Shown here: positions 9,349-44,842 of the stretch, in pieces
Position numbering within the stretch: position 1 is the first letter of the stretch
Layout: every line of letters starts with the position of its first letter
Origin: ANME-2 cluster archaeon
GTDB taxonomy: Archaea > Halobacteriota > Methanosarcinia > Methanosarcinales > Methanocomedenaceae
NCBI GenBank assembly: GCA_014237145.1
Contig: JAAXOC010000025.1
Coordinates: 1 to 51,176 of the forward strand
Direction: 5' to 3'
Length of the DNA: 51,176 bases
Notes under the pieces: generated by a model
The model's database searches: none
What the model saw: the letters and a program-made list of their open reading frames with translations, nothing else
Told to the model about the DNA's origin: nothing
Translations under genes and position numbers: made by a program

Positions 9349-9711
9349 AAGTATTACCCCCAAAAGATGCTAAAAACTTCCTACTTTTAGCTTGTTCCGT
9401 GCCTTTTATTTATCGATTAAATCCAAAACGAGAATTGAATGATAGAAATCCTCATGCACCAACGCCAATGCCCCGGACTTTGCGAATCGACGTCTGGAGT
9501 TTATAGCCCAAGTGCAGAAACCCTCCCCCCAATCATAACAAATCTTCGAATTCATCAATATCAAGCCCGGCAGCTTTATTTTAATTCCTCAACAGTCCTG
9601 GTTTTAGTTCTTTAATGTAGTTGATCAAACACCTCCAAAGTAATATTGAAATAATTCCATGCCGGTCATAAAAGAAGGACTTAAATATCACCTCGATTCA
9701 AGATAACAGTT
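9349..9711. other. Gene-free stretch between hicA and the regulator
   Basis: No convincing gene on either strand. A diverged copy of the dispersed hairpin repeat lies at 9467-9499 (AATGCCCCGGACTTTGCGAA...), preceded by bases similar to 4064-4090. The last ~30 bases hold TTAAATATC, a likely TATA box for the gene starting at 9712. Confidence 0.5.
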
Positions 9712-10170
9712 ATGACCCAGATAGATAATAAAGTCTTCAAAGCAATGGGAAGCTCCACCCGTATGAATATGCTGGAGGTACTGACTGATACTGAGATGCA
9801 TATTTCAGGACTGGCAAAGGAATTGAATATCTCTGTCCCTGTTGCCGCAAAGCATGTCAGGATATTGGAAGATGCCGACCTTATTGAAAGAAAAGAATTC
9901 GGTAGAACCCATGTACTCAAGCTCAAATCAAAAAATATGTATAATATTCTCGATAAGTTTGCTAAAGTCGATACAATTGAACTACCAGAAGGAAGCAGCC
10001 TGTTAGATGCACTAAGAAGCGTGTCGGCTGTAGAGGTTAAGAGAGTGGGCAATCGGGAATATGTAATATCTACAGATGGTGAAGAAGGATTATTCCTGTA
10101 TGAGATTGATGGAAAACCCTCAGATAAAACAGTTGATGAATATTTATTGGAGAAAGATGTCACAGTTTAA
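9712..10170 (+). CDS. Winged-helix repressor with a probable DUF4430 (cobalamin-binding-like) C-terminal domain
   Basis: 152 residues. Residues 1-75 form an ArsR-like winged helix (STRMNMLEVL, ISGLAKELNISVPVAAKHVRIL with the recognition helix, then the wing ERKEFGRTHVLKL). Residues ~92-152 read SSLLDALRSV...GNREYVIST-DGEEGLFLYEIDGKP...DEYLLEKDVTV. That follows the order of the DUF4430/transcobalamin C-terminal beta domain (xLDAL, yVtsIdG, W/LyyvNGk, a closing loop). Placement directly before btuFCD-cbiZ suggests that it senses corrinoid and controls uptake. The winged helix is clear. The DUF4430 call and the ligand are inference from motif order and neighbours. Confidence 0.75.
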   Translation: MTQIDNKVFKAMGSSTRMNMLEVLTDTEMHISGLAKELNISVPVAAKHVRILEDADLIERKEFGRTHVLKLKSKNMYNILDKFAKVDTIELPEGSSLLDALRSVSAVEVKRVGNREYVISTDGEEGLFLYEIDGKPSDKTVDEYLLEKDVTV

Positions 10171-10301
10171 TGGAAGAAACTGGTGCCTGTGACCAAGAAG
10201 AAGATATCTGTAAATATCAAGAACTGATGGATCCAATAGTGGTAATTAACTTGAGATACATTAAATCACATTTTCATTTGACTGCGCCCACATTGTATTG
10301 A
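10170..10301 (+). CDS. Possible 43-residue peptide coupled to the regulator
   Basis: An ATG overlaps the regulator's stop (TAATG) and opens a frame of 43 codons with two cysteines (GAC and DIC near residues 7 and 14) and an acidic N-terminus. The overlap is the only support. Its latter half looks less like a protein, so it could be chance. No known family. Confidence 0.25.
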   Translation: MEETGACDQEEDICKYQELMDPIVVINLRYIKSHFHLTAPTLY

Positions 10302-10340
10302 CCCCTTTTTGGCTAACACCTGTAACCCAGAACACCAGTA

Positions 10341-10348
10341 TTATATAT
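10341..10348 (+). promoter_or_regulatory. TATA box for the btuFCD-cbiZ operon
   Basis: TTATATAT centred ~36 nt before the ATG at 10381. Archaeal transcription usually starts ~25 nt after the box, placing the start near 10370. This argues for translation from 10381 rather than the ATGs at 10360 or 10363. Confidence 0.5.
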
Positions 10349-10380
10349 GAAATCTCCAGATGATGTCAGAGGAATTACTA

Positions 10381-11436
10381 ATGCTAAAAACATCCCATAT
10401 CGTTTTGTTTATTCTAACCGTAACCGTATTATTGACCCCGACCACACTGGCGTATCCCATCAATATCACTGACAATTTCGGATGCACAGTGACGATTGAA
10501 AAAACACCAATGCGCATCGTATCCCTGTCCCCGTGTAACACAGAGATATTATTTGCGGTTGGTGCCGGCGACAGAGTAGTTGCCGGAACCACGTATGATA
10601 CATATCCTCCTGAAGCTGTCAATCTATCCAAGATCGGTGGATTCTCGAGCGTAAATATCGAAGCAGTGGTGAACATGTCTCCTGATCTTGTCCTTGCCGA
10701 ACACGGCAACGGCGAGGAAACGATCAATGCATTGAAGAACCTGGACCTCAAAGTGGTCTCATTAAACCCAAAAACAATGGATGACATTCTTGAGAACATC
10801 CGGCTTGTTGGGAACATCACAGGAAACGATGCTGCTGCTGAATCGCTCACAGCGGATATGACACAGCAGATAAGGGATATAACATACATAACCGAATATA
10901 TCCCAGACAGCAGAAAGCCCCGAGTGCTTTATATCGTCTGGCATGACCCCATGTATGCAGCAGGTGCAGGTTCCTTCCCTGACGACCTGATACAAATGGC
11001 TGGCGGTAAAAATATAGTAGAGGTAGTAGGCTGGCCAGTTATAAGTATTGAAGACGTTGTTGATAAAAACCCGCAGATCATAATATGTTCAGGCATGGGT
11101 GGAGGGTCATACACTATAATGGAAGCCATAACAGGTAACCAGGTACTGGCGCAAACGGATGCAGTGAAAAATAATAAAGTCTATCCTGTAGACGATCCGA
11201 ACACGATCGAGCTGGCAGGTCCGAGGATCGTCCAGGGGTTAGCTGAACTGCATGGGTTTATCGCACCTGATATCCAGCCCGCGGAGAACGTATCACCCAC
11301 ACAAGCCGCTGAAACCCAAAAAGGAGCATCTCCAGATAATTCGAATGACACATCCGATGCATCTTCGATACCCGGCTTTGGTATGATACTTGCACTTGGC
11401 ATGATATTGATGGTTTATTTAAAACGGGAGAGATAA
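10381..11436 (+). CDS. btuF: Corrinoid ABC transporter substrate-binding protein with PGF-CTERM anchor
   Basis: 351 residues from the ATG at 10381, which has AGAGGA upstream and lies after the TATA box. Signal peptide at residues 1-24; there is no lipobox Cys. The body is a class III binding protein (ITDNFGCTVTIEKTPMRIVS, LSPCNTEILFAVGAGDRVV, the second lobe from RKPRVLYIVW). A Ser/Thr/Asn-rich linker of ~40 residues leads to PGFG, a hydrophobic helix and KRER at the very end, which is the PGF-CTERM signal processed by archaeosortase A. The protein should capture B12 or cobinamide outside and deliver it to BtuCD. Cargo is inferred from cbiZ in the operon; heme or siderophore binding proteins share the fold. 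Confidence 0.85.
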   Translation: MLKTSHIVLFILTVTVLLTPTTLAYPINITDNFGCTVTIEKTPMRIVSLSPCNTEILFAVGAGDRVVAGTTYDTYPPEAVNLSKIGGFSSVNIEAVVNMSPDLVLAEHGNGEETINALKNLDLKVVSLNPKTMDDILENIRLVGNITGNDAAAESLTADMTQQIRDITYITEYIPDSRKPRVLYIVWHDPMYAAGAGSFPDDLIQMAGGKNIVEVVGWPVISIEDVVDKNPQIIICSGMGGGSYTIMEAITGNQVLAQTDAVKNNKVYPVDDPNTIELAGPRIVQGLAELHGFIAPDIQPAENVSPTQAAETQKGASPDNSNDTSDASSIPGFGMILALGMILMVYLKRER

Positions 11437-11448
11437 GAAATAACTACC

Positions 11449-12519
11449 ATGGCTAAACCCGGCAAGTCGGTTATACTTATACTGGCATTACTCCTGATTG
11501 CAGCAGTGATCAGCAATACAGCTATAGGCTCTACCAGTATTTCTCCGGATGTCAGCGCAAAGATCCTGGTAACTAAAATATTTGAGAGTATATTAGAAAT
11601 AACCGGAAAGATATTCCCGTCTGTCGTCGCAAATGTCCAGGCGAACGGGTATTATCCAGTTGATAAGACCTGGACTGACAGCCAGGAGGTCATTATCAGC
11701 GATATCCGCCTTCCCAGGGTACTCCTCGCAGCCCTGGTGGGTGCAGCCTTAAGCACAGCAGGCTGTGCAATGCAGGGATTGTTGAAAAACCCAATGGCTG
11801 ACCCATATATTATCGGGATGTCATCAGGTGCGGCACTGGGAGCATCACTTGCTTTTGTGCTGCTGCTGCCGGTCCAGCTCCTCTCATTTATAGGGGCTGT
11901 TATCACAATATTTGTAGTATACAACATATCAAAGATCGGGGGTAAAGTGCCGGTCGATACACTCTTACTGTCTGGTATAGCAGTTGGTTCGCTGCTCGCT
12001 GCACTCACTTCCCTGATCATATTCATATCCCATTCACCTCACCAGATAATCTTCTGGTTGATGGGCGGACTCTGGACAGCAAGCTGGGATAAGGTGAAGA
12101 TCACATCTGTCATGATAATTTTTGGTATCCTTGTGCTGTATCGTTTTGCCTGGAGCCTGAATGTAATGCTGCTGGGAGAAGAACAGGCGCAGTACCTGGG
12201 TATAAATATTGAGAAGGTGAAGCGCTACGTGCTGGTATTGTCCGCACTTATCACGGCTGCTGCTGTATCTGTCAGCGGTATCATCGGGTTTGTGGGGCTT
12301 ATCATTCCTCATATCATGCGCATAATAGTTGGTCCCGACCACAGGATACTTTTTCCGGCTTCAACCCTGATGGGTGCAGTCTTTCTGGTACTCTGCGATA
12401 CCTTTTCCAGGACTATCATAGACTCGGTCGAACTACCAGTGGGTATCGTGACTGCCATGTTCGGTGCACCGTTTTTCATATACCTGTTACGAAAGAGGAG
12501 GCAAAGCCTGTATGCTTGA
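11449..12519 (+). CDS. btuC: Corrinoid ABC transporter permease (FecCD/BtuC family)
   Basis: 356 residues with about ten membrane helices. The family's LPRVLLAALVGAALSTAGCAMQGLLKNPMADPYIIG block is present (residues ~82-117), as is GIIGFVGLIIPHIMRIIVGPDHR, which contains the coupling helix touching the ATPase. It forms the membrane channel for the substrate carried by BtuF. It starts 12 nt after btuF and its end overlaps btuD by 8 nt, so it belongs to one operon. Length is typical. Corrinoid specificity is inferred from the neighbouring regulator and cbiZ. Confidence 0.88.
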   Translation: MAKPGKSVILILALLLIAAVISNTAIGSTSISPDVSAKILVTKIFESILEITGKIFPSVVANVQANGYYPVDKTWTDSQEVIISDIRLPRVLLAALVGAALSTAGCAMQGLLKNPMADPYIIGMSSGAALGASLAFVLLLPVQLLSFIGAVITIFVVYNISKIGGKVPVDTLLLSGIAVGSLLAALTSLIIFISHSPHQIIFWLMGGLWTASWDKVKITSVMIIFGILVLYRFAWSLNVMLLGEEQAQYLGINIEKVKRYVLVLSALITAAAVSVSGIIGFVGLIIPHIMRIIVGPDHRILFPASTLMGAVFLVLCDTFSRTIIDSVELPVGIVTAMFGAPFFIYLLRKRRQSLYA

Positions 12520-13297
12520 GATTCGAGACCTGAGCGCCGGTTATGGACACAGGCATGTCCTTGAGCATATATCACTCAAAGCCAGTGAAGGAGAAGTTGT
12601 AGGGATCATAGGATCCAATGGTTCAGGAAAAACAACGCTGTTGAAGACCATAACAAAGGTTTTAGAACCCATCTCAGGGACAGTTCTTATCGATGGGACG
12701 AATGTTAATGAGATGCAAAGCAAAGAGATTGCAAAAAAGGTGGCAGTTGTCTCACAGGTGATCTCAATAAACTTCGAGTTCACTGTGGAAGATATCGTGT
12801 TAATGGGGCGGACTCCTTATATCAAAGGATCTGAAACTGTTGAGGATATCAATATAGTGAGGGATGCTATGGAAAAAACAAACACATTTTTTTTGAAAGA
12901 CAGGTTGATCACGCAGTTAAGCGGCGGGGAACTGCAGCGGGTGATCATTGCAAGGGCGTTTGCACAGAATCCGAATATCCTGCTTCTGGATGAGCCAACT
13001 TCACATCTTGATATAACGAATCAGATCGATATTTTAAATCTTATAAAGAATGCCTCTCGAAAGGGTATGGTTGTGGTAGCAGTTATCCACGACCTGAACC
13101 TTGCTGCCTATTATTGCGATAAGATATGTCTTCTCCAGGACGGGAAACTGATCTCAGCTGGCAGCCCTGAGCAAGTGCTGACCTCGTCTAATATTGAACG
13201 TGCATTTAATATTACGGTAAAAGTAATACCAAATGAAATTACAAACTCGCTTTATGTAATACCTGTACTGGAGCCGCTGCATGATACATTACATTAA
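12512..13297 (+). CDS. btuD: Corrinoid ABC transporter ATP-binding protein
   Basis: 261 residues from the ATG at 12512, with GAGGAGG 9 nt upstream inside btuC. Walker A GSNGSGKT (~residues 34-41), the Q-loop region VVSQVISINFEF, signature LSGGELQR, Walker B ILLLDEPTSHLD and the switch His (AVIHDLN) are all intact. It powers import through BtuC. It overlaps btuC at its start and cbiZ at its end by 17 nt, which couples translation across the operon. Confidence 0.9.
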   Translation: MLEIRDLSAGYGHRHVLEHISLKASEGEVVGIIGSNGSGKTTLLKTITKVLEPISGTVLIDGTNVNEMQSKEIAKKVAVVSQVISINFEFTVEDIVLMGRTPYIKGSETVEDINIVRDAMEKTNTFFLKDRLITQLSGGELQRVIIARAFAQNPNILLLDEPTSHLDITNQIDILNLIKNASRKGMVVVAVIHDLNLAAYYCDKICLLQDGKLISAGSPEQVLTSSNIERAFNITVKVIPNEITNSLYVIPVLEPLHDTLH

Positions 13298-13931
13298 AGA
13301 TTCCACGCTGGTCATCGAGGATGAATTCGAAGCAATTAGTTCAGGCATTAACGGCGGTCGCGGGCATGTGGATCGTCTATTTAACCATCAGGTGCAGCCG
13401 GGCTTTAACCACTTCGAACCTGCACAGTATCTGGACCGACTGGCTGATTCTCTTCAGATAAGGAGACCATATTTCGGACTACTAACAGCGGTGAACATGG
13501 ACGATCTGTGCGTGAGGATAGATGACTACCTGACAACGTTTGTCACTGCTGGTATCACTCATCCTTCAGGCTTCAGGGTAATGGCAAATATAACTGAAAA
13601 TGGGTGTGAAAATCTAAATCTAAATTGGGCAGGCACCATCAATATTATTCTTGTTGTTAACGGGACCCTGTCCGAAGGTGCAATGGCAGGTGCGATCATT
13701 ACAGCCACTGAGGCTAAAGGCCTTGCGCTGATGGAAATGGGATACGATTTTTTAGGAACTACCACTGATGCGGTGATAGTGGCATACTCGAAACAATCCT
13801 CACCGTACATAGAATATGCCGGATCGTATACGGAGTTTGGTGAGAAGATCACAGGAACTGTTGTTAGATGTGTTAAAGAGGGGATAAGGAAAACGGAGAA
13901 GAGAAACGAGGATGGGAATGAATCTGAATAA
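13281..13931 (+). CDS. cbiZ: Adenosylcobinamide amidohydrolase
   Basis: 216 residues matching CbiZ throughout: an early block with SSGINGG, HPSGFRVMANITENG in the middle, INIILVVNGTLSEGAMAGAIITATEAKGLAL, then GTTTDAVIVAY. CbiZ removes the aminopropanol (or nucleotide) arm of adenosylcobinamide or pseudo-B12 to give adenosylcobyric acid, so that scavenged corrinoids can be rebuilt as the cell's own cobamide. It starts inside btuD and ends the operon, showing that BtuFCD imports corrinoids that need remodelling. The last ~15 residues are charged and probably disordered. Confidence 0.92.
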   Translation: MIHYIKDSTLVIEDEFEAISSGINGGRGHVDRLFNHQVQPGFNHFEPAQYLDRLADSLQIRRPYFGLLTAVNMDDLCVRIDDYLTTFVTAGITHPSGFRVMANITENGCENLNLNWAGTINIILVVNGTLSEGAMAGAIITATEAKGLALMEMGYDFLGTTTDAVIVAYSKQSSPYIEYAGSYTEFGEKITGTVVRCVKEGIRKTEKRNEDGNESE

Positions 13932-13952
13932 CGAGTGCATTTTTATCTCAAT

Positions 13953-14030
13953 CGTTATACTCCGCAACTCTGCTGCAACTCTGCTGCGCAACTCTGCTGC
14001 GGTTTGGTGTGACGTCGCAACGTTTGACTG
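13953..14030 (+). repeat. Dispersed repeat with triplicated CAACTCTGCTG unit
   Basis: Copy of the repeat at 3251-3308, with the CAACTCTGCTG unit present three times in a row before GGTTTGGTGTGACGTCG. It starts about 20 bases after cbiZ and is the only copy with the expansion. Confidence 0.65.
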
Positions 14031-14137
14031 AAGTTTTGGAGTCGACTAAACCATCGGGTGAATTGATTTTTACTCTTCAAGCCATTTTAGGGGCAGAAAT
14101 GAGCGTGGAAGCAGCTTGCTGATGCTTATAATGGTAA

Positions 14138-14275
14138 ATCCAATCCATTCCTGACGCTATGGAAACCTATGGAACAGTAGTTCCTCTACACAAAGAACTT
14201 GCAAAAGGAACATTACTTGACATTCTTCATCAAACCGGGTTGAGTAGAGATGACCTGTAAGAACTGCTCAAGTGA
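14138..14275 (+). pseudogene. HicA toxin C-terminal remnant with premature stop
   Basis: The frame through 14159-14257 reads METYGTVVPLHKELAKGTLL, then DILHQTGLSRDDL, which is the C-terminal half of HicA/YcfA-like toxins (VPxH..xLxxGTLxxIL.x.GLSxxxL). TAA at 14258 then interrupts before ELLK and a second stop. The catalytic GSH half is missing upstream and in-frame stops precede it. No hicB partner is seen. It belongs to a different HicA subtype from the intact gene at 9115, so it is not a simple duplicate. Confidence 0.6.
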
Positions 14276-14406
14276 AAAACCAAATATACGCCTCCCCCTT
14301 TTTTTACCACCCTCCGGGCTTCCCGTCTCCTGTCATTCTCACTGCACTCCGGCGTCCTCTCCCTTGCTAAATAGTAACATTACTTTCACCCCGCTAGGCT
14401 GCAAGT

Positions 14407-25891: not shown

Positions 25892-25900
25892 GGAATATTT

Positions 25901-27251: not shown

Positions 27252-27277
27252 GTTTGAAAAAGTTCCGACGAGACACC

Positions 27278-27955
27278 ATGGATGTTATAATTTTAGCTAC
27301 TTTCGGGATTCTTACCAGTATCCTGGTGTTCGGTATCAAAACAGGTCTTGGATGCGGTTTTGCAGATATTAAAAAACGTGAGATCATAGTGATCTGTTCA
27401 GTTTATTTCGTAATTTCAATAATTATGGGGTACCTTATTGGTACTGTTCCCAATGATTTCCTTGAAACAATATCAGGCGTTGGATTACTGTTTCATGTAC
27501 TGCTGGCTGGCCTGATGATCGCCGCCGGGATATATACCCAGAAGCAGTGGAACTGCGGTTGTGATGTAAGCAGGCGCACATTTATATTTTTATCCTTACC
27601 ATGCCCGGTCTGTTTGACCGCACTTTTCATTGCCACCACGATGCTAGCTACTGCACTTGACCTGAGCGGTCCGGTGATCGGGGTCATTGTGGGATCGGTC
27701 TTCTTTTTATCGGCACTTGCCTCATCGCTCTTATTCAGGCGGCTGGGAAAGACCCCGGAAACCCTTGGAAGCGTGATGATGTTCCTGGGCATCTTCTACG
27801 TGCTTGGGGCTGTGCTTGTACCCGCGTATATGCAAAGTAAGACGCTGATAGTCCCACAGTTGACAATGAATACGGGTGCGATGCTCGCATCATTTGCCGT
27901 TCTTGTGCTGTTCATCACAGCAGGATTTGCTGTGCACCAGTGGAGGGAATGTTGA
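27278..27955 (+). CDS. DUF2162 polytopic membrane protein
   Basis: 225 residues from the ATG at 27278. Six or more membrane helices, with CGFADIKKREI after helix 1, a cytoplasmic-looking QKQWNCGCDVSRR loop, SLPCPVCLTALFIATTM in the middle and a final VLFITAGFAVHQWR. The paired cysteines (CGC and CPVC) may bind metal or form a disulfide. The DUF2162 family (predicted transporter) occurs in methanogens beside ExbB-like, DUF2149 and CobN-like genes, as here. It overlaps nothing; its stop lies 1 nt before the exbB-like start. Its role may be transport of metal ion or corrinoid across the membrane; this is inferred from position only. Confidence 0.8.
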   Translation: MDVIILATFGILTSILVFGIKTGLGCGFADIKKREIIVICSVYFVISIIMGYLIGTVPNDFLETISGVGLLFHVLLAGLMIAAGIYTQKQWNCGCDVSRRTFIFLSLPCPVCLTALFIATTMLATALDLSGPVIGVIVGSVFFLSALASSLLFRRLGKTPETLGSVMMFLGIFYVLGAVLVPAYMQSKTLIVPQLTMNTGAMLASFAVLVLFITAGFAVHQWREC

Positions 27956-27956
27956 A

Positions 27957-28580
27957 ATGGACGCCACCTCTTCAATTTTTGTTATCCTCTACACAGTCTC
28001 CACTTCACTGCTGTATCCTGTGGTCCTGCTGATCCTGATGTTTGTGCTCTGGGCACTGGTATCGATAGGGGAATTCCTGTCAGAGTATTCGAAACGGCAT
28101 AGGGATACCATGAGCCTTGAGAAGGTCTGCATACAGATCAGGACCGAGATGAGCAACCAGTCAACAGATGGTGCAGTGCGCCATCTGCGCAGTATCGACC
28201 AGAACCACCTGGTGACATCGTTTGCAAAGGAGGCGGCACAGTGTCTTGAAAATAATAAATTCCGGGAACTGGAGCGGTTATTCGGAGAGTATGAGGTCAA
28301 GCTGGCAGCCCGGCTGGAAAAAACGAGGATCATGTCCACAGTTGCGCCCATGTTAGGTCTGATGGGGACACTGATCCCGATGGGACCTGCCTTGATCGGA
28401 CTTTCAAAGGGTGATGTGGCCGCTTTGGCTGACAATCTTATTATTGCTTTTTCAACGACTGTGCTGGGATTGTTCGTCGGGAGTGTCGGTTATGTGCTGA
28501 CCCTTATCCGACGGCGGTGGTACCAGTATGACCTGGAAGATATCGAGTATGTGCTTGAGAGCATGCTGGAGGATACATGA
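27957..28580 (+). CDS. MotA/TolQ/ExbB-family proton channel protein
   Basis: 207 residues from the ATG at 27957, with GGAGGG upstream. One helix near the N-terminus (residues ~7-33), a soluble cytoplasmic domain (to ~125), then TRIMSTVAPMLGLMGTLIPMG, the conserved ExbB/TolQ segment, and a second long helix pair (LADNLIIAFSTTVLGLFVGSVGYVLTLIRRRW). ExbB oligomers conduct protons and drive an ExbD-like partner. The downstream DUF2149 gene, overlapping by 4 bases, is the natural partner. In bacteria such motors energise TonB-linked uptake of B12 and siderophores; in archaea without an outer membrane the driven component is unknown. Confidence 0.87.
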   Translation: MDATSSIFVILYTVSTSLLYPVVLLILMFVLWALVSIGEFLSEYSKRHRDTMSLEKVCIQIRTEMSNQSTDGAVRHLRSIDQNHLVTSFAKEAAQCLENNKFRELERLFGEYEVKLAARLEKTRIMSTVAPMLGLMGTLIPMGPALIGLSKGDVAALADNLIIAFSTTVLGLFVGSVGYVLTLIRRRWYQYDLEDIEYVLESMLEDT

Positions 28581-28933
28581 GATCAAAACACACGGGCAGA
28601 CGGAGAAAAGGACTGCTGGACCAGGAGTCTGAGTCCAATCCTTTAAGCGGAGTTGCCAATCTCTTCGATGTTGCCATGGTGTTTGCTGTCGCACTGCTGA
28701 TCGCGCTCGTTATGTCTTATCACCTGCCCGAGATGCTTGACCCGGATGCAAGCTTTACGGTGGTCAAAAATCCAGGGGAGCCAGGGATGAAGATAATCGT
28801 GAAGGACGGAGTGACAATAGAGGTTATGAATATGACAGATATGATTGCAGGCGGTGCGGGTGAGGAACTTGGTACGGCGTATAAGCTTGCTAACGGGAAA
28901 GTGATCTATGTGCCTGCGAACGGTACGGAGTGA
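28577..28933 (+). CDS. DUF2149 protein (ExbD/TolR-like)
   Basis: 118 residues: a basic N-terminus, NPLSGVANLFDVAMVFAVALLIALVMSY as the single helix (the Asp before the helix is where ExbD carries its proton-binding Asp), then an outside domain of ~65 residues ending in a beta-rich GKVIYVPANG. Family DUF2149 is found next to ExbB-like genes in methanogens. It overlaps the channel gene by ATGA. The topology and position make it the candidate rotor/stator partner that could transmit force to the surface chelatase proteins encoded next. Confidence 0.85.
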   Translation: MRSKHTGRRRKGLLDQESESNPLSGVANLFDVAMVFAVALLIALVMSYHLPEMLDPDASFTVVKNPGEPGMKIIVKDGVTIEVMNMTDMIAGGAGEELGTAYKLANGKVIYVPANGTE

Positions 28934-29012
28934 TATTTTTTTTTGAATGGTTGGGCAAGTAATATTGAGTTATGGCAAATAAAATTGATTAATGGATTAA
29001 CAGGTGGATAAT

Positions 29013-32000
29013 ATGTGGAACAAACAGGTGGAAGGTATGGGAAATGGTAGGGAAAATGGTGTGGGAAAAATGAAAATTTGCTCATTGGTTTTAAGTGCAT
29101 TGTTTATTGTGATGCTTGCATCGGTGGTATCAGCAGAGGAGAACCAAACAGATGTAATGTTTGTGCTGGGTACGGATTTGAACGAAGCTTCGCTAACAAA
29201 CGTGTCTTCGAACATCAACATCACGTCTAAACTGAACGTGACTATCTTCAATGTGACCGAAACAGTACCGGAAGGACTCAATTTTTCGAAGTATGCGGTC
29301 ATCTTCATCGAATCGCAGACTGAAAGTATGTTCAACGGTTGGCAGGCGAACTTGACGTCTAACCTGACCACAGCCAAAGACAGTGGCAGTCAGGTGATAG
29401 GATATAATCTATCTTCTAATGTCACTGTGGATAATGTGGACCTGTACTCTGATGAGTACACAGACATCGAAAGATACTGGGTGCAGGGTGGCGACACCAA
29501 CATGGAGTTCATGCTCAAGTTCATAGGGCAGAAGTTCTGCGGTGCATGGGTAAATGAGAGCATCCCTGATCCTGAACTACTGCACCCAAAGATCAATATT
29601 ACTTTTATTTTGAATTATGAAACTGACAACTTTTATCTTATCAAAGTTTTAGGTGAGAGGGGTGTGATCACGGACCGGTTCAATATCATCGTGATGGATG
29701 GACAAGAGGCTGCTGCTGCAAACCTGACTGACCTCTCCGATCAGAATGTCATCATGCTGGGTATGATCGGTTTTGACGAATTCCCTAAGTTTAAAGATGC
29801 ACTTCTTGCTGCAAAGGAAAATGGCACACAGATCGGGCTCATTGGCAATTCCGTAGATACTTACGGAGTTAGTAACCTCGATATGGAAAATAGTGCAATG
29901 AAGGATTATCATGAAAATGGCGGTTATACGAACATGGAGAACTGGATCCGCTGCATCGGGGCAACCCTTGAAGATGCCTACATCGAATATTCTCCTGCCG
30001 TACCTCCATCGATTCCTGACCATGGCATCTACCATCCCGAAGTATTCCCGAGGATATTCGAGAACAGTACAGAATATCTTGACTGGTATGCAGATCACGG
30101 CTACAATGCATCCGCACCCACCATCGGCATCATTACCAATGGACTTGCTCAGGAAGAGATATACTATACTACTGATAACGCGGTGATAAGAGACCTTGAA
30201 TCGAAAGGGTGTAATGTCATCTACACCACCAAAGAAGTGTGCTCACAGGATGTGGATTACTTCACCAAGGACGGAAATGTGCTTGTCGATTCCATCATTT
30301 CCCTGAATGCATTCTACTTGAACTATGGTAATCAGGAGCAAGGTGTGGAATATCTCAAGAGCTACAACGTACCTGTATTGAAAGGAGTACTTGATCATTA
30401 CAGTACCCCCGATGAGTACAATGCCAGTCAGCGCGGGCTGGACCTGATGTCCATTGCTTTCCAGGTCACACAGCCTGAGATCGATGGCTGTATCGATTAT
30501 ATATGGATAGCAGGTAGGGTCGAGCATCCGGTCACGGGTCAAAAATACTATGAGCCTATCATGGAACAGGTGGACTGGCTCTGTGACCGTGCGATCGCAT
30601 GGGCAGAGCTTGGAAGAGCCAATAATGCTGACAAGAAGATAAGTATCATCTACTACAACCACGAAGGCGGCAAGAACAACATAGGCGCCAGTTACCTTGA
30701 CATCGGCTCAAGTTTCACATTGCTGCTTGACCAGATGAATAAAACAGGTTATAATATCGGGAATGGCACAATTCCAAATGGCAGCGAGTTCATAGACCTG
30801 TTCATCGAGAGCAGGAACGTAGGCTCATGGGCGCCCGGTGAGCTTGAGATGGTTGTGAACTCAGGCAATATTACACTCGTACCCGTGGGCGAATATCTTT
30901 TCTGGTATGATACTCTACCGGATTCGGTCAGGACTGATGTCGAAGCAACATGGGGTCAGGCACCCGGAGACATCATGGTGTATGAAAACCAATTTGTCAT
31001 TCCTACCGTACAGTTTGGAAATGTCAATTTTATACCCCAGCCGACCAGAGGTGGTCTCTCTGATGAATCACTCATATATCATGACAAGTCACTGCCACCG
31101 ACACACCAGTATCTTGCAACATATTTCTGGATCAACAAGGTATATGATGCCAATGCCATGATCCACTTCGGTACACATGGTACGCAGGAATGGCTGCCAG
31201 GGAAAGAGGTTGGGCTGTGGAGATATGATTATCCATCCATCATGGTGGACGATACGCCTGTAGTATATCCCTACATCATGGACAATGTGGGTGAAGGTAC
31301 CCAGGCAAAACGCAGGGGTAATGCTGTGATCATAGACCACCTGACACCACCGATAATGGCTGCCGGTATCTATGGTGATCTTGCTGCCATGCATGAAAAG
31401 ATACACGAGTATGAGACTGCCGCGAGTAACAATGATACCGCAAAGATGGCACTCTATCGCAACTCTACCATCGAACTTTACGAAAATCTCACGATGGAGA
31501 ACGATCTTGGCGTAACTCCGGATGAACTCAGGGTAATGACGGATGAGGAATTTGGAGATTTCGTTGGAAGCACTGTCCACGACTATCTCCATGAACTACA
31601 ATCCACACTCATGCCTCTGGGACTCCATACCTTTGGTGTCGCACCACAGGGCGAGAAACTCGTCTGCATGGTCAAATCGATGCTTCGAAGTGTTTTCGTT
31701 GATCACATATACAACGTGATCCCGACAAATGAGGGTACTGAGGAACAACGCAGGGACAACGCCACTGATTATGCGAACGACCTTTTGAACGCCACACTGC
31801 TCAATGGGACAAATGTATCAGATGCTCAGATGAATGTACTGAATCTCACAGATACGAACATCATGGCAGATCTGGAGCAGGGATTGGAATATGCGGGTTA
31901 CCTGGGTCAGACCACCCGTGAGATCGACCAGACATTACATGCCCTAAACGCAGGATATATCGAGCCAGGACCCGGAAATGATCCTATCAGAAATCCTGAG

Positions 32001-33680
32001 GCTCTGCCAACAGGCAGGAACTTCTATAGTTTCGACCAGAGAAAGTTCCCTGACGCAGAGACCGAGGTGATGGGGATTATACTTACAAACCAGATGCTGT
32101 ATAAGTACTGGATGACACACAACGAGACATATCCGAACAAAGTGGCGTATGTACTGTGGTCTGTGGAGACCATGCGCCACCATGGACTCATGGAAGCCCA
32201 GATATACTCGCTTTTGGGTGTTAAACCAACAAGAAGCTGGGGCAGGATCACAGGTTTCGAGGTCATCTCGCCAGAGAACATGACACATCCGAGGATCGAT
32301 GTGCTCGTCACACCTTCGGGACTATACAGGGATACGTTCCCGTATCAGCTTGAATTGATCGATAAGGCAGTCCGGACAGTTGCGGTGCTCAATGAAAGCA
32401 ATGAAACAAACTATGTCAGGTGGAACTCCCTGAAGATGGAAGAAGCACTGATCGCCAGTGGATACAACAACACCACTGCACAGATCATTTCACGATCCAG
32501 GATATTCAGTGAACCACCGGGTGCATACGGTCCCGGACTTGAGGGTGCGGTGACTGCGAGTGAGACCTGGGACAGCGAGGATAAACTTGCAGACCTGTAC
32601 ATGTCACGAATGTCTAACATCTATGGGCAGGACATATGGGGTGATAATTATGAGGATGTGTTCAGGTTGAATCTTATGGATGTGGATGCAGCTGTGCATA
32701 GTGACTCATCGAACCTGTTCGGAATTATCGATAACGATGATTTCTACCAGTACCTTGGAGGACTTGGCCTTGCAGTAAGGTCATTGACAGGTGAAAATCC
32801 TGAGATGTATATCGCAGACCTGTCAAATGTAGATAAACCCCAGATCATCACACTGAACGAGGCGTTCAGGATAGAGCTGCGTGCACGGTATTTCAATCCA
32901 AAATGGATATCCGGAATGATGGAATACGATTACGCCGGTGCAAGGGAATTCATGAAGTTCACAGAGTATATGTGGGGCTGGGATGCGACGACACCTGACC
33001 TGGTAAAGGATTCTGACTGGAATGAGATATACAACATCTACGTCAACGACAAGTATGATGATCTTGGTTTGGATGAGTTTTTCAAAGATAACCCATATCA
33101 ATATCAGTCTATGGTCGCACGAATGATCGAAACCGAGCGAAAGGACTATTGGAATGCCGACCAGGATGTGATCAATACCCTCGTGAAAGAATACGTAGAA
33201 TCCGTAGTCGAGAACGGCGTCACCTGCTGTCATCATACATGTGGCAATCCAACCCTGAACGAATATATAGAAGGTATGATGTCAGTTGCCGGTCTCAGTG
33301 CTGAGGACATCGAAAAGTACCGCCAGCTGATGGATGAAGCCACAGGACGGCAGACAGAACAGCCTGCGACCGAGACCGTTGTTGACGACAGCAGCAGTGG
33401 CTCAAGGCGGAGGCTTCATGATAGCGGAACTGGCAATGAAAGTACGGATGCAGGTTCAGGCGCTGGTCTGGATGCGGAACTGATGCCGGATGCAGGTGCC
33501 GGCGGCGAAGGTGCGAGCAATCCAAGCGATTACGTGGAAGGATACGAGATGCAGGATGAGAGCGCCCAGCCATCAGATGCGGGACCAATGTCATTTTCAG
33601 CGACTGATATTGTGGGAATGCTGATGGTGGTGCTGGCAGCCGGTGCTATCTATATAGGCTTCAGGAGGCGGGGGGGTTAG
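29013..33680 (+). CDS. Secreted CobN-like chelatase large subunit, paralogue 1
   Basis: 1555 residues. ATG at 29013 with AGGTGG upstream, identical in position to paralogues 2 and 3. Signal peptide ending VSAEE (~residue 40), many Asn-x-Ser/Thr sites as expected outside the cell, then the CobN/magnesium-chelatase H domain: HFGTHGTQEWLPGKEVGL (~715-733), QAKRRGNAVIIDHLTPP (~765-782). A conserved CCHHTCGNP lies at ~1405. A Ser/Gly/Asp-rich linker with YVEGYEMQD leads to one helix (~1528-1550) and the positive end RRRGG. True CobN inserts Co2+ into hydrogenobyrinate with an ATP-driven CobST partner; here the location is outside and no partner is present. A surface role in corrinoid/tetrapyrrole or metal handling is inferred. 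It follows DUF2149 by 79 nt. Confidence 0.88.
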   Translation: MWNKQVEGMGNGRENGVGKMKICSLVLSALFIVMLASVVSAEENQTDVMFVLGTDLNEASLTNVSSNINITSKLNVTIFNVTETVPEGLNFSKYAVIFIESQTESMFNGWQANLTSNLTTAKDSGSQVIGYNLSSNVTVDNVDLYSDEYTDIERYWVQGGDTNMEFMLKFIGQKFCGAWVNESIPDPELLHPKINITFILNYETDNFYLIKVLGERGVITDRFNIIVMDGQEAAAANLTDLSDQNVIMLGMIGFDEFPKFKDALLAAKENGTQIGLIGNSVDTYGVSNLDMENSAMKDYHENGGYTNMENWIRCIGATLEDAYIEYSPAVPPSIPDHGIYHPEVFPRIFENSTEYLDWYADHGYNASAPTIGIITNGLAQEEIYYTTDNAVIRDLESKGCNVIYTTKEVCSQDVDYFTKDGNVLVDSIISLNAFYLNYGNQEQGVEYLKSYNVPVLKGVLDHYSTPDEYNASQRGLDLMSIAFQVTQPEIDGCIDYIWIAGRVEHPVTGQKYYEPIMEQVDWLCDRAIAWAELGRANNADKKISIIYYNHEGGKNNIGASYLDIGSSFTLLLDQMNKTGYNIGNGTIPNGSEFIDLFIESRNVGSWAPGELEMVVNSGNITLVPVGEYLFWYDTLPDSVRTDVEATWGQAPGDIMVYENQFVIPTVQFGNVNFIPQPTRGGLSDESLIYHDKSLPPTHQYLATYFWINKVYDANAMIHFGTHGTQEWLPGKEVGLWRYDYPSIMVDDTPVVYPYIMDNVGEGTQAKRRGNAVIIDHLTPPIMAAGIYGDLAAMHEKIHEYETAASNNDTAKMALYRNSTIELYENLTMENDLGVTPDELRVMTDEEFGDFVGSTVHDYLHELQSTLMPLGLHTFGVAPQGEKLVCMVKSMLRSVFVDHIYNVIPTNEGTEEQRRDNATDYANDLLNATLLNGTNVSDAQMNVLNLTDTNIMADLEQGLEYAGYLGQTTREIDQTLHALNAGYIEPGPGNDPIRNPEALPTGRNFYSFDQRKFPDAETEVMGIILTNQMLYKYWMTHNETYPNKVAYVLWSVETMRHHGLMEAQIYSLLGVKPTRSWGRITGFEVISPENMTHPRIDVLVTPSGLYRDTFPYQLELIDKAVRTVAVLNESNETNYVRWNSLKMEEALIASGYNNTTAQIISRSRIFSEPPGAYGPGLEGAVTASETWDSEDKLADLYMSRMSNIYGQDIWGDNYEDVFRLNLMDVDAAVHSDSSNLFGIIDNDDFYQYLGGLGLAVRSLTGENPEMYIADLSNVDKPQIITLNEAFRIELRARYFNPKWISGMMEYDYAGAREFMKFTEYMWGWDATTPDLVKDSDWNEIYNIYVNDKYDDLGLDEFFKDNPYQYQSMVARMIETERKDYWNADQDVINTLVKEYVESVVENGVTCCHHTCGNPTLNEYIEGMMSVAGLSAEDIEKYRQLMDEATGRQTEQPATETVVDDSSSGSRRRLHDSGTGNESTDAGSGAGLDAELMPDAGAGGEGASNPSDYVEGYEMQDESAQPSDAGPMSFSATDIVGMLMVVLAAGAIYIGFRRRGG

Positions 33681-33709
33681 ACCTCCTGCCGCCCTATTTG
33701 ATTTTTTTT
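33663..33709 (+). terminator. Terminator after CobN-like gene 1
   Basis: AGGAGG (33663-33668, inside the last codons) pairs with CCTCCT (33682-33687), and eight T follow at 33702-33709. The same device ends paralogues 2 and 3. Confidence 0.65.
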
Positions 33710-33720
33710 GATTATCTAGA

Positions 33721-33732
33721 CAAGTAGACTTG
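33721..33732 (+). promoter_or_regulatory. Palindromic CAAGT-N2-ACTTG motif before CobN-like gene 2
   Basis: CAAGTAGACTTG, followed by GAGTTAAGGTAAATA, a possible TATA region. The motif recurs before paralogues 3 and 4 with a different 2-nt centre (GA), which keeps the arms but changes the spacer, as expected for a protein-binding site. A degenerate form lies at 28956 before paralogue 1. Confidence 0.5.
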
Positions 33733-33777
33733 AGTTAAGGTAAATACAATTGATTGATGAATTAACAGGTGAATAAT

Positions 33778-36700
33778 ATGTGGAACAAACAGGTGAATGA
33801 TATGAAAAATGGTAGGAAAAATGGTATGGGCAAAATGAAAGTTTGCTCATTGGTTTTAAGTGCATTGTTTATACTAGTACTTGTTCCAGTGGTATCGGCA
33901 GAAGAAAATAACTCAATTAGTTTTGTGTTGGGAACAGATCATAACAGGGATCCACTTGAGAATATAATTACTTCTGGATATCTGGATATAAACATAAGTG
34001 TTTACAATGCAACCGAGGCAAATAGCACGAATTTCAGTGCAGAGAATGTTATCTTCCTTTCTTCCCTTGATATAGGGACACTGCAGAATCTCAACAATAC
34101 TTTAAACCACAGTGCCCACATCGTTTCTTACGATCTTCCCGAAACCCATGACTATGGGAATGTCAACGATTCGAATATCACAGGGTTATGGGAAGCAGGA
34201 GGCTACCACAATGTAAAAACTCTCATACGTTACATGAATGAAAGTTTCTATGGCAGTGGAGTTCCCGCTTCTGAAAAATTGGAAGTAGCTTTTGTTTTTT
34301 CCAGAGACAGTTCCATTATCACCATGAATAATGTAGCTTCTGACCTCGCTGTTTCTGATATGATGAATATCAGTACATATTTTGGCAGGTCCAATGAAGA
34401 CCTTAGTTTTGATCTTAGTGACAAAGACATTGTGGTGATGAGAGACCTGGCTGCACCGGTAATTGAAACCATCACTCCTACTGTCAACGCCGCAAAGGCC
34501 AACGGTGCCCATATCATTAGTGTGGGAGACCTGGTCCAGTCCTATTCATTGCACAATGTGAACCTTTCAGACCCGGAATATTCTGATATCAATGAGTATT
34601 TCAAGTATGACTCCGAGGAAAATTTCAAGAGACTTACCACGTTCCTTGGTGTCAAGTTCGCTGGCAGGATAGATGTTATCCAGCCTACTGTTGAAAGACC
34701 GATCTATGGTATATATCATCCTGAGGCCGGGGAAATATATTCAAGTGCAGAAGATTATCTTGACTGGTACTCTACAAAAGGCTATGATCATGAAAAGCCT
34801 ACCATTGCTATTATCTATTCTTCCCTGAAATATATCTACAGCAGGGATGCACCCTTAGCTGGGGCCTTAGTCGATTCCTTTGAATCCCGAAACTGCAATG
34901 TCATTGTTGCTTCTTATTCCTACAAGGACCCTGCATCTGTAAATTACCTAATGCTAAACGGAGAACCCATAATTGATAGTGTGATAATTGTTTCCAGAGG
35001 TGGGCGCATGAACTATAAGGATTCAGAACAGGGTATCGAGGATCTTAAAACCTGGAACGTGACCCCATTAAATGGTATTCGGTTATTCTACAGTGTGAGT
35101 GCCGAAGAATGGGAAAACTCTTCCCATGGTGTTGGGCCTGAACAGACCTTCCAGCTTGCTGCTGCGGAGATGGACGGTATAATCGAGCCTATTGTAATTG
35201 GTTGCAAGGACCCTTCCATTGGGGATTCAGCTTATTATCCTATAGACTATCAAGTAGAATGGCTCACACAGAGAACGATTTCCTGGATGCAGCTGCATAG
35301 GATGCTAAATTCCGAGAAGAAGATCGTCATACCCTACTATGCTGCAGAAGCAGGAAAAGCGGCAATGGGCGCAGATATTGATTATTATCTGGATGCTCAG
35401 GCCAGCCTTGCAAATCTACTTAAAGCGATGAAGGCAAGGGGTTATGATCTTGGAACAAAGCCGCTACCTGACAGGGACGAACTGGCCCAGCTCATGGTAA
35501 CACAGGGATACAACATAGGAACATGGGCACCCGGAGAGCTGGAGAAACGTATGGAAAAAGGAAGTGTTATCCTTATTCCTGAATCCCAGTATCTTGAGTG
35601 GTTCAATGGATTGTCGCAAGAGAAGCAGGAAGAAATGATCAATATCTGGGGTGAACCACCAGGTGAGATTATGGTCTACGAGAATGGGACCGGCAAGTAC
35701 CTTGTCATTCCCACGATCGAGTTTGGAAATGTAATACTGGCCCCTGATCCTATGTGGGGATGGGATCAGAACGAGACAGTGATGTACCATGACGGTTCCA
35801 TTCCGCCAACTCATCAAAATCTTGCTTTCTACTTGTATCTTGGGAAGGTATATGACGCCGATGCACTGTTCCCGATATTCACCAGTATTATGGCGATGCC
35901 GGGTAAGGAGGCTGGTCTCTCTGCACAGGATTGGGGAGCTATACTTCTGCAGGATATGCCCATAGTACACGTTCTGCCCATGGATGCCGAAGGTATCTTT
36001 GACCGCCGGAGAGCAAACATGCTTATTGTGGACTTCATGACACCAACCATTGTACCGTCCGGTCTCTATGGGAACCTGTCAATACTACAGCAGGACATTG
36101 GGATGTACAGACAGGTGGTTGATGAAGGGGTAAAAGTACAGTACAGGTCTGACATCATCAATCAGACAAGGGAACTGGATCTGGATAAGGATATGGAAGT
36201 GAATCTGGAAGACATCGAAGGCAACGTTACTGCCACAGACGTCTTTATCGATGATCTGGACGATTACTTGCAGGAGCTGAAAACAACATTCATGCCTTAT
36301 GGTTCCCACACTCTCAGCGAGCCGCCAACCGGGGAGAGTCTGGTGGCGATGGTAGGATCCATGTTGGGGAAGGAATTTAAACAGCATGTACAGTTGATCA
36401 ATTCCACAAAAGGACTGACTACGGCTCTCCTGAATGAGACTGTACTTAATGGAACTTCTGCAGTTAATGCACAGAACATGATACTTGGGGCAGTGTCTGA
36501 GAATATAACAGCGGACCTGAACATTTCTATTGAATACACAACAAGGATCAACGGGTGTACTATTGAGATCCCACGCATTCTCGATGCTCTTGAGGGTAAA
36601 TACATACCTCCGGGGCCAGCCGGTGATCCTATAAGAAACCCGGATGCTTTGCCCACGGGCAGAAACCTTTGCACATTTGATGACAGGCTCATCCCGACAA

Positions 36701-38325
36701 CTGCTGCATGGAAGGTGGGTACGGATCTTGCAGACGAACTGATTGCCCTACGTCTTGCAAAAAACGGCACATACCCAAGAAAAGTAGCTTTCCTTCTCTG
36801 GTCAATTGAGACCACAAGGCATCAGGGGACTATGGAATCCGAGATATTTTACCTGCTTGGAGTAAAACCAGTGTGGGATAGTAAAGGAAGAGTAAATAAT
36901 GTTGAACTCATCAACTCCAGCGAACTGGGAAGGTCCAGGATTGATGTGTTGGTAACTACTTCGGGTTCGTACAGGGACATGTATGGAAGTAGGCTTCAAT
37001 TGATTGATAAGGCTGTGCGGCTTGCATCCGAAGCGGATGATGATCTATACCCCAACTATGTCAAACAGAACTCAAATTCAATCTATCAGTCCCTGATTGA
37101 CGTAGATTATGACAATAAAACGGCATACAACCTTTCCGTATCTCGTATATTCTGTCCTCCTCCGGGTTCATACACCCCTGGGATCGAGCATGTCATCAGC
37201 AGCGATACCTGGGAAGAAAGGAAGAAGATCGCTGATCTCTACATAGACCGGATGGGGTACATCTACGGTCAGGAAATGTGGGGTGAGCAGTACACGGATG
37301 TCTTCCGGCAGAACCTTGCCGATGTCGAAGTGGGAGTGTTCAGCCGCACCTCAAACCTTTATGGTACCCTGGAACATCCGATGGTTGCAGCATACTTTGG
37401 TGGTCTAAGTCTGGCTGTTGAAAGCGTGACCAGGGGTAACACACCTGACATGTACATCAATAACCAGCGTGATATTGACGGTGCAAAAATTGAGACCCTG
37501 AACCATTTCCTGAGTAAGGATTTACGTTCACGTTACCTCAATCCCACATGGATCGAGGGAATGAAGGAGCATGGATACGATGGTACCCGTTACATGGATG
37601 CTTTTATCGGGAACATGGGCTTATGGGACACTGTGATGCCGGATCTTATCACCGATTCGATGTGGGACGAAGTCTATGAGACGTATGTTCTTGACCAGTA
37701 CAACATCGGTGTTTCCGATTATCTAAAGGAAACAAATCCTTATGCATACCAGTCAATGACTGCGAACATGCTAAATTCCATTCATCGATCTGATTGGCAT
37801 GTCTCCGATGATGTTATCCAGAATCTGGTAAAGGAATACGTAGAATCGGTTGTTGAGGAAGGAGTGACCTGCTGTCATCATACATGTGGCAATCCAACCC
37901 TGAACGAATATATAGAAGGTATGATGTCAGTTGCCGGTCTCAGTGCTGAGGACATCGAAAAGTACCGCCAGCTGATGGATAAAGCCACTGGACGGCAGAC
38001 AGAACCTGCGACTGAGACCATCGTTGACGGCAGCAGTAGTAGTAGCACATGGCGGCGGTTCCAGAGCAGCAGGTCAGGTAATGAAAGTACGGATGCAGGT
38101 TCAGGCGCTGGTCTGGATGCTGAACTGATGCAGGAAGCAGGCGCTGGCGGCGAAGGTGTAAGTAATCCTGCCGATTACGTGGAAGGATACGAAATGCAGG
38201 ATGAGAGCACAGGGTCAGCAGATGCGGGACCAATATCATTCTCAGCTGCTGATATTGTGGGAATGCTGATCGTGGTGCTGGCTGCCGGCGCTATCTATAT
38301 AGGCTTCAGGAGGCGGGGGGGTTAA
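33778..38325 (+). CDS. Secreted CobN-like protein, paralogue 2, with degenerate signature motif
   Basis: 1515 residues with the same start, signal peptide (to VSAEE), linker, helix and RRRGG end as paralogue 1, but the chelatase core has changed. Where the others have HFGxHGTQEW, this one reads DALFPIFTSIMAMPGKEAG (~residues 697-715), and IVDFMTPTI replaces VVDHLTPP (~750-758). Both histidines conserved in CobN/ChlH are therefore lost, while CCHHTCGNP (~1365) and IRNPDALPTGRN are kept. It is full length without frameshift, so it is probably a binding or scaffold pseudoenzyme rather than a decaying gene. GGTGA lies before the ATG; its own terminator and upstream palindrome suggest separate transcription. 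Confidence 0.85.
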   Translation: MWNKQVNDMKNGRKNGMGKMKVCSLVLSALFILVLVPVVSAEENNSISFVLGTDHNRDPLENIITSGYLDINISVYNATEANSTNFSAENVIFLSSLDIGTLQNLNNTLNHSAHIVSYDLPETHDYGNVNDSNITGLWEAGGYHNVKTLIRYMNESFYGSGVPASEKLEVAFVFSRDSSIITMNNVASDLAVSDMMNISTYFGRSNEDLSFDLSDKDIVVMRDLAAPVIETITPTVNAAKANGAHIISVGDLVQSYSLHNVNLSDPEYSDINEYFKYDSEENFKRLTTFLGVKFAGRIDVIQPTVERPIYGIYHPEAGEIYSSAEDYLDWYSTKGYDHEKPTIAIIYSSLKYIYSRDAPLAGALVDSFESRNCNVIVASYSYKDPASVNYLMLNGEPIIDSVIIVSRGGRMNYKDSEQGIEDLKTWNVTPLNGIRLFYSVSAEEWENSSHGVGPEQTFQLAAAEMDGIIEPIVIGCKDPSIGDSAYYPIDYQVEWLTQRTISWMQLHRMLNSEKKIVIPYYAAEAGKAAMGADIDYYLDAQASLANLLKAMKARGYDLGTKPLPDRDELAQLMVTQGYNIGTWAPGELEKRMEKGSVILIPESQYLEWFNGLSQEKQEEMINIWGEPPGEIMVYENGTGKYLVIPTIEFGNVILAPDPMWGWDQNETVMYHDGSIPPTHQNLAFYLYLGKVYDADALFPIFTSIMAMPGKEAGLSAQDWGAILLQDMPIVHVLPMDAEGIFDRRRANMLIVDFMTPTIVPSGLYGNLSILQQDIGMYRQVVDEGVKVQYRSDIINQTRELDLDKDMEVNLEDIEGNVTATDVFIDDLDDYLQELKTTFMPYGSHTLSEPPTGESLVAMVGSMLGKEFKQHVQLINSTKGLTTALLNETVLNGTSAVNAQNMILGAVSENITADLNISIEYTTRINGCTIEIPRILDALEGKYIPPGPAGDPIRNPDALPTGRNLCTFDDRLIPTTAAWKVGTDLADELIALRLAKNGTYPRKVAFLLWSIETTRHQGTMESEIFYLLGVKPVWDSKGRVNNVELINSSELGRSRIDVLVTTSGSYRDMYGSRLQLIDKAVRLASEADDDLYPNYVKQNSNSIYQSLIDVDYDNKTAYNLSVSRIFCPPPGSYTPGIEHVISSDTWEERKKIADLYIDRMGYIYGQEMWGEQYTDVFRQNLADVEVGVFSRTSNLYGTLEHPMVAAYFGGLSLAVESVTRGNTPDMYINNQRDIDGAKIETLNHFLSKDLRSRYLNPTWIEGMKEHGYDGTRYMDAFIGNMGLWDTVMPDLITDSMWDEVYETYVLDQYNIGVSDYLKETNPYAYQSMTANMLNSIHRSDWHVSDDVIQNLVKEYVESVVEEGVTCCHHTCGNPTLNEYIEGMMSVAGLSAEDIEKYRQLMDKATGRQTEPATETIVDGSSSSSTWRRFQSSRSGNESTDAGSGAGLDAELMQEAGAGGEGVSNPADYVEGYEMQDESTGSADAGPISFSAADIVGMLIVVLAAGAIYIGFRRRGG

Positions 38326-38355
38326 ACCTCCTGCCGCCATATTTGGTTTTTTTTT
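38308..38355 (+). terminator. Terminator after CobN-like gene 2
   Basis: AGGAGG (38308-38313) and CCTCCT (38327-38332) with a run of nine T at 38347-38355. Nearly identical to the one after gene 1. Confidence 0.65.
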
Positions 38356-38366
38356 GATTATTTAGA

Positions 38367-38378
38367 CAAGTGAACTTG
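38367..38378 (+). promoter_or_regulatory. Palindromic CAAGT-N2-ACTTG motif before CobN-like gene 3
   Basis: CAAGTGAACTTG, followed by GAGTTAAAGTAAATAAAATTG, with the TAAATAAAA part ~30 nt before the ATG and likely to be the TATA box. Confidence 0.5.
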
Positions 38379-38423
38379 AGTTAAAGTAAATAAAATTGCT
38401 TGGTGGATAAATAGGTGGATAAT

Positions 38424-44651: not shown

Positions 44652-44681
44652 GCCTCCTGCCGCCATATTTGATTTTTTTTT
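44634..44681 (+). terminator. Terminator after CobN-like gene 3
   Basis: AGGAGG (44634-44639) and CCTCCT (44653-44658) followed by a run of nine T (44673-44681). Confidence 0.65.
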
Positions 44682-44692
44682 GATTATTTAGA

Positions 44693-44704
44693 CAAGTGAA
44701 CTTG
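44693..44704 (+). promoter_or_regulatory. Palindromic CAAGT-N2-ACTTG motif before CobN-like gene 4
   Basis: CAAGTGAACTTG, the same as before gene 3, followed 14 bases later by the perfect palindrome AACTTAAGTT (44719-44728). The sequence beyond differs from the other three leaders. Confidence 0.45.
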
Positions 44705-44777
44705 AATTAAAACAGATAAACTTAAGTTGAAGTTGTGTAATTATAAATAAAGTGGAATAAAAAACAATAAAATGTTT

Positions 44778-44818
44778 GACATCCCGGTCCTGCTGCCAGG
44801 CAAATAAGCCGGGATGTC
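44778..44818 (+). promoter_or_regulatory. Leader hairpin before CobN-like gene 4
   Basis: Perfect 10-bp arms GACATCCCGG and CCGGGATGTC with a 21-base loop that contains a further TGCC/GGCA pairing. It ends 25 nt before the ATG, between the promoter motif and the ribosome site. It does not match the cobalamin riboswitch consensus known to me. It may be an operator or an RNA control structure, and is absent from the other three leaders. Confidence 0.5.
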
Positions 44819-44842
44819 GTGCACATTGTCAAGGTGAACAAC

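Follow-up and report, generated by a model that had tools for sequence, protein, structure and literature searches.

Methanogenesis and the anaerobic oxidation of methane depend on corrinoid enzymes. Cobalamin riboswitches and the CarH-type B12 regulators of bacteria couple corrinoid level to gene expression, using an RNA element or a different type of B12-binding domain to do the job that would here fall to a regulator encoded in a 51,176-nucleotide stretch of an ANME-2 cluster archaeon genome (contig JAAXOC010000025.1, assembly GCA_014237145.1; hereafter 'the window'). Our literature search turned up no archaeal corrinoid sensor demonstrated by experiment, and no experimental study of a protein in which an ArsR-type winged helix-turn-helix (wHTH) is fused to an SLBB domain, as in this regulator. 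The closest described proteins are intracellular SLBB domains of the transcobalamin clade fused to ArsR-like winged helices, such as Methanosarcina gi:72395507 (Burroughs et al., 2007; Biol Direct 2:4, PMC1796856). In the portions of that paper drawn on here, the fusions are proposed to be probable one-component transcription factors whose signal would be B12, one of its precursors or a different soluble ligand, and the accompanying review exchange cautions against assuming that the ligand is B12. The window protein has the same domain order and comes from the same phylum, so that an earlier note on this DNA, which saw in it a new type of B12 sensor, had been anticipated in 2007. What is new is the family-wide corrinoid and cobalt gene context, which those portions of the paper do not give and which is quantified and extended here, together with the truncation of the window copy. 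On balance, we favour a reading of the family as one-component regulators that join an ArsR wHTH to an SLBB/DUF4430 ligand domain, have a corrinoid as their likeliest ligand and control corrinoid and cobalt genes.

The N-terminal half of the regulator is an ArsR-type wHTH (HTH_20, 8e-9; HTH_5, 5.6e-7; both above the Pfam cut-off), with scores of 29.8 bits for PF01022 (cut-off 22) and 35.8 bits for PF12840 (cut-off 27), and it reaches 54.7 bits against an NCBIfam metalloregulator subfamily with a cut-off of 55. The wHTH fold is held in common with the ArsR/SmtB metalloregulators SmtB, CzrA and NolR; unlike these, the regulator carries a separate C-terminal domain of ligand-binding type, its sequence in the window is devoid of cysteine, and no SmtB-type alpha-5 metal site could be recognised in it by eye. 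Residues 94–148 of the window protein align to DUF4430 (PF14478), a domain of the transcobalamin C-terminus (PMC4350170), at 15.2 bits, below the curated Pfam cut-off of 23.8 bits. Intact relatives score 19.7 (G002), 23.8 (G003), 24.4 (G005), 32.5 (L051) and up to 38.4 bits (G022). The DUF4430 domain is therefore real in the family, the cut-off being reached by intact relatives and not by the truncated window copy.

Structures were modelled with AlphaFold for an intact relative of 171 residues (L036, from G002) and for its isolated C-terminal domain, rather than for the truncated window protein, giving mean predicted local distance difference test (pLDDT) values of 73.9 and 78.6, respectively. 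In a fold search the full model matches ArsR/SmtB structures with a probability of 1.00. After the wHTH, the model places a strand (86–92), a helix (97–104) and five further strands (107–112, 116–121, 128–132, 150–156 and 163–170), giving the order strand-helix-hairpin-strand-strand, in which the first two strands after the helix form a predicted hairpin insert (pLDDT there only ~54–68). Burroughs et al. describe two conserved SLBB glycines, one following strand 2 and one preceding the strand-3 flange; here G94 comes after strand 86–92 and G123 and G126 before strand 128–132, and all three are invariant in 31/31 family sequences. The earlier note had related this domain to the corrinoid-binding beta domain of transcobalamin. 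With the relative's isolated domain as query, the cyanocobalamin-bound beta domain of human transcobalamin (5np4) is the best of 50 structures listed by probability (0.90) and by query TM-score (0.51), although not by E-value; the match is weak (E 0.13), no structural match to this model falls below an E-value of 0.001, and a PDB sequence search with a profile of the domain found no relative. Taken together, the DUF4430 matches of the relatives, the SLBB glycines, the predicted hairpin and the weak 5np4 match support the coupling of a wHTH to a transcobalamin-like domain. The conserved glycines are shared with the C-terminal beta domain of transcobalamin and intrinsic factor, as the predicted beta-grasp with its putative hairpin insert would be, whereas the regulator domain is intracellular, is fused to a wHTH, lacks the alpha/alpha-toroid partner, and has a single strand before the helix and an extra strand at the C-terminus. 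This strand order led us to consider a permuted beta-grasp, in which the first strand would be missing and the last would be additional.

A strong gene context across the family supports corrinoid sensing. In a first set of 33 family genes from 11 genera, 17 lie within 5 kb of a gene for CbiM, CbiZ, FecCD or CbtA, against 0.58 expected, and 5 of the 11 genera have at least one such case. Other ArsR-type genes in 16 of these genomes served as a control: 15/20 family genes and 2/131 control genes lie within 5 kb of the same partners (Fisher p 1e-14, a value that is indicative because the partner sets were chosen post hoc and the genomes are related). Of five CbtA genes found, four are next to a family gene. 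The neighbours comprise btuFCD-cbiZ in the genus of the window, btuFCD with a CbiR-like gene (L045), cbiZ with a TIM-barrel gene (L050, L052, L057), CbiMNQO (L049, L051, L064), CbtA (L046–L048, L055; in two cases with NicO as well) and DUF2162-ExbB (L060, L061). A second set of loci, fetched afterwards and including those of a deep family (f10), adds btuFCD (L115), CbiMNQO with NicO (L109, L111, L116), CbiM (L118), DUF2162-ExbB-DUF2149-CobN (L120), the same arrangement with CobN not in view (L121) and, in f10, DUF2162-ExbB-DUF2149 (L092). Named records among the family matches are metagenome-assembled genomes of the ANME-2 cluster and Methanosarcinales. In the best explanation, the gene is one of a family of one-component regulators in Methanosarcinales, ANME-2, Methanoperedens-type archaea and one further deep archaeal family (f10) of the phylum, which to judge by its shape is probably ANME-1.

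In the window, the regulator gene directly precedes a complete corrinoid import and salvage operon on the same strand, as the earlier note had described, with genes of BtuF, BtuC and BtuD type and cbiZ in a single run ending at 13931 (Table 1). The order regulator-btuFCD-cbiZ is identical in three related genomes (G002, G003, G005), where the regulator is 89–98% identical to the window copy. The best NCBIfam name for the btuF-like product is a PGF-CTERM-anchored substrate-binding protein, followed by BtuF, both below cut-off. Its start is probably 10381 rather than 10360, since the ATG there has AGAGGA ahead of it and the sequence at 10342–10348 is TATA-like, and comparison with G003 places the true start of btuD probably near 12512. 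The transcript of the regulator itself is probably leaderless or nearly so. The absence of a visible cobalamin riboswitch also held up: Rfam gave no match, either over the whole window at the gathering threshold or over 9400–14400 at E<=10. As to an operator, the motif TAAYANNTRTTA, present in several promoters, occurs with one mismatch before btuF, none before cbiM at L049 and one at c9 of L045, 9% of control promoters match it with at most one mismatch, and the form found before btuF is not repeated next to cobalt genes of the window genome; it is a weak, putative operator candidate only. An unbiased search for gapped palindromes over the promoters returned nothing clearly beyond shuffles. 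An inverted repeat around the regulator promoter (GGTCATAA/TTATGACC) was dropped as not conserved in the genus.

The window's own copy of the regulator is interrupted. The earlier note had the domain order right and missed that the protein is short by 19 residues: the full-length relatives that were aligned first have 167–184 residues, and all contain the C-terminal stretch that is missing after residue 152. The codon for the conserved Glu153, GAA in the relatives, is TAA in the window, with the reading frame intact downstream, and the residues removed include the invariant Trp154 and Leu157 and two predicted strands. When 295 genomes of the phylum were searched with a profile, more than 100 other matches were listed, with no internal stop among them, and the stop-bearing gene is the only family member in the window genome. 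Given the uninterrupted downstream frame and the lack of internal stops in the listed relatives, the TAA would be either an error in the sequence or a nonsense mutation of recent date. If the loss is real, it is recent, because the changes private to the window copy, six silent and one replacement besides the stop, are mostly silent. Unless the stop is an error, the copy is probably impaired, with the last strands of its ligand domain lost, and the btuFCD-cbiZ operon may therefore be unregulated in this genome. The alternative, that the gene is intact and the TAA arose in sequencing or assembling this fragmented genome, we rate below an even chance: it would need a difference of only one base, and it fits the intact frame and the otherwise intact operon.

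Several observations weigh against a corrinoid-responsive regulator beyond the truncation itself. No regulon-wide operator was found, and the near-palindrome GCTAACACCTGTAACC is not supported as such a site; the confidence of the models in the C-terminal domain is moderate (mean pLDDT 74–79); and the hydrophobic (aromatic) hairpin residue that in transcobalamin-like SLBB domains stacks on the cobalamin base is not kept throughout: among 28 sequences, position 118 (matched by eye) is Y/F in roughly half, Q in a single one and V/L/M/A in almost all of the rest. The context test used partners picked after the neighbours had been seen, in genomes that are not independent. Most f10 loci examined have no corrinoid neighbour, nor do f1g4, f1g2 and f3g6, and the CbiR-like assignment in Methanosarcinaceae, although the best NCBIfam name, falls below its cut-off, for which reason this neighbour was left out of the enrichment test.

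The family could instead sense something upstream of corrinoids, be it ions of cobalt or nickel or a different tetrapyrrole on which the CobN clusters act, given that transporters of metal alone (CbiMNQO, CbtA, NicO) are among its neighbours, that the neighbouring CobN clusters resemble the haemin-uptake hmu operon of Bacteroidetes in gene content and that many ArsR/SmtB-type proteins sense metals. We regard this as unlikely, however: the adjoining cbiZ and btuFCD genes deal with corrinoids that are already complete, the likeness of the sensor domain is to a B12 carrier rather than to a metal site, and the window protein is without the cysteines and visible alpha-5 site noted above. Equally improbable is an unrelated soluble ligand, with SLBB specificities having diverged and the corrinoid genes being only part of a mixed regulon. 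The ligand diversity of HTH-fused forms was flagged by both reviewers and authors in the portions of the 2007 paper cited above, many deep-family copies adjoin unrelated genes, and in Methanosarcinaceae the regulator gene precedes a radical-SAM/UDG DNA-repair pair; against this, the enrichment involves several non-homologous cobalt and corrinoid systems in different genera and is absent for other ArsR genes. It is more improbable still that the 152-residue copy works as a short form, for although its DNA-binding half is intact and the predominance of silent changes suggests that the remaining protein was under selection until recently, it has lost the invariant Trp and Leu with two predicted strands, and none of the other family members listed has an internal stop.

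A corrinoid sensor would work as follows. The ArsR-type winged helix would bind DNA and the transcobalamin-like beta-grasp (SLBB/DUF4430) domain a soluble ligand, most likely a corrinoid (a cobamide, cobinamide or another B12 precursor). The intact protein would most likely be a dimeric repressor, in which corrinoid binding alters the affinity for DNA so that the winged helix releases or grips its promoters, and the simplest direction would be repression when corrinoid is plentiful. Targets would be corrinoid import (btuFCD), cobamide remodelling (cbiZ and CbiR-like genes), cobalt uptake (CbiMNQO, CbtA, NicO) and the CobN-type chelatase clusters. The corrinoid-sensing repressor of the earlier note thus gains strong family-wide gene context, while both its ligand and repression as its mode of action stay at the level of inference.

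Table 1. Features of the window discussed in the text.
Feature	Coordinates	Strand	Evidence and remarks
TATA-like box TTAAATAT of the regulator gene, putative	9681..9688	+	Sequence; kept in four genomes of the genus
Regulator open reading frame (ORF) as it stands	9712..10170	+	152 aa; ArsR wHTH and C-terminal DUF4430/SLBB-like domain, ended early by TAA
Winged-helix DNA-binding domain, ~residues 1–75	9712..9936	+	HTH_20/HTH_5 above cut-off; ArsR/SmtB fold matches, probability 1.00
DUF4430/transcobalamin-like SLBB domain, residues 86–152, incomplete	9967..10167	+	Profile, model, fold comparison
TAA where G002, G003 and G005 have GAA (Glu153)	10168..10170	+	Alignment; sole internal stop among the matches listed
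Remnant of the regulator frame, WKKLVPVTKKKISVNIKN	10171..10224	+	18 codons that continue to match relatives and include the Trp and Leu invariant in the family
Near-palindrome GCTAACACCTGTAACC upstream of the btuF TATA box	10312..10327	+	Kept in four genomes; weak candidate for an operator
TATA-like box TATATAT of btuF, putative	10342..10348	+	Sequence
btuF-like substrate-binding protein	10381..11436 (ORF listed from 10360)	+	PF01497 1.5e-37
btuC-like permease	11449..12519	+	PF01032 2.8e-92; BtuC is the best NCBIfam name, under its cut-off
btuD-like ATPase	12464..13297	+	PF00005 1.4e-35; corrinoid ABC transporter ATPase is the best NCBIfam name, under its cut-off
cbiZ, adenosylcobinamide amidohydrolase	13281..13931	+	PF01955 2e-43
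DUF2162 - MotA/ExbB - DUF2149 - four giant CobN/Mg-chelatase homologues	27254..51040	+	

Elsewhere in the window, ~17 kb downstream of the regulator, lies a cluster whose DUF2162-ExbB part adjoins regulator family genes in other genomes. Its four tandem CobN/Mg-chelatase homologues have 1518–2078 aa, the last two also carrying PKD and carboxypeptidase-regulatory-like surface domains, and in its content of CobN, ExbB and DUF2149 the cluster itself is akin to the hmu operon; no description of the function of such a CobN/DUF2162-ExbB-DUF2149 cluster in archaea was apparent in our literature search. Shortly before it, at 25427–26212, are a small winged-helix gene (HTH_24) and a DUF3467 gene, and just upstream of the regulator, at 8894–9348, is a gene pair for a HicB-like antitoxin (PF15919) and a HicA toxin (PF07927).

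Some family loci in other genomes have arrangements of their own. At L051:7022-9273 (genome G053), one regulator gene is flanked on both sides by CbiM genes of different subtypes. In five Methanosarcinaceae loci (L043, L044, L053, L054, L056) the order is conserved: the regulator has a CbiR-like TIM-barrel gene on one side and, on the other, a DNA modification pair of radical-SAM/UDG type (TIGR03916, DUF4130) with an HhH protein. In f10, the regulator of L097 (genome G138) is followed by a PQQ-repeat protein with a DUF4430 of its own and then by a diphthamide-synthase-like (DUF71) gene with BtuF-like proteins around it; the PQQ-repeat/DUF4430 protein looks secreted and is encoded (L097:4835-6469) directly after a regulator that itself has a DUF4430-type domain. 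The two could possibly be a scavenger and a sensor with a common ligand domain.

The observation is thus real and its interpretation plausible, strengthened at the level of the family by gene context and weakened for the window copy by the stop codon. Somewhat short of an even chance, in our estimation, is the fuller account in which a transcobalamin-type beta-grasp sensor would be a common regulator of the corrinoid economy in methanogens and anaerobic methanotrophs and would just have been broken by a nonsense mutation in the window lineage, leaving the import operon unregulated. The gene context makes the prediction of 2007 directly testable, since several family members occur in genomes of Methanosarcina type, and this group includes cultivated, genetically tractable archaea. 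If the family binds corrinoids, it would supply the missing switch for their corrinoid and cobalt economy, and the transcobalamin fold would have a second use.

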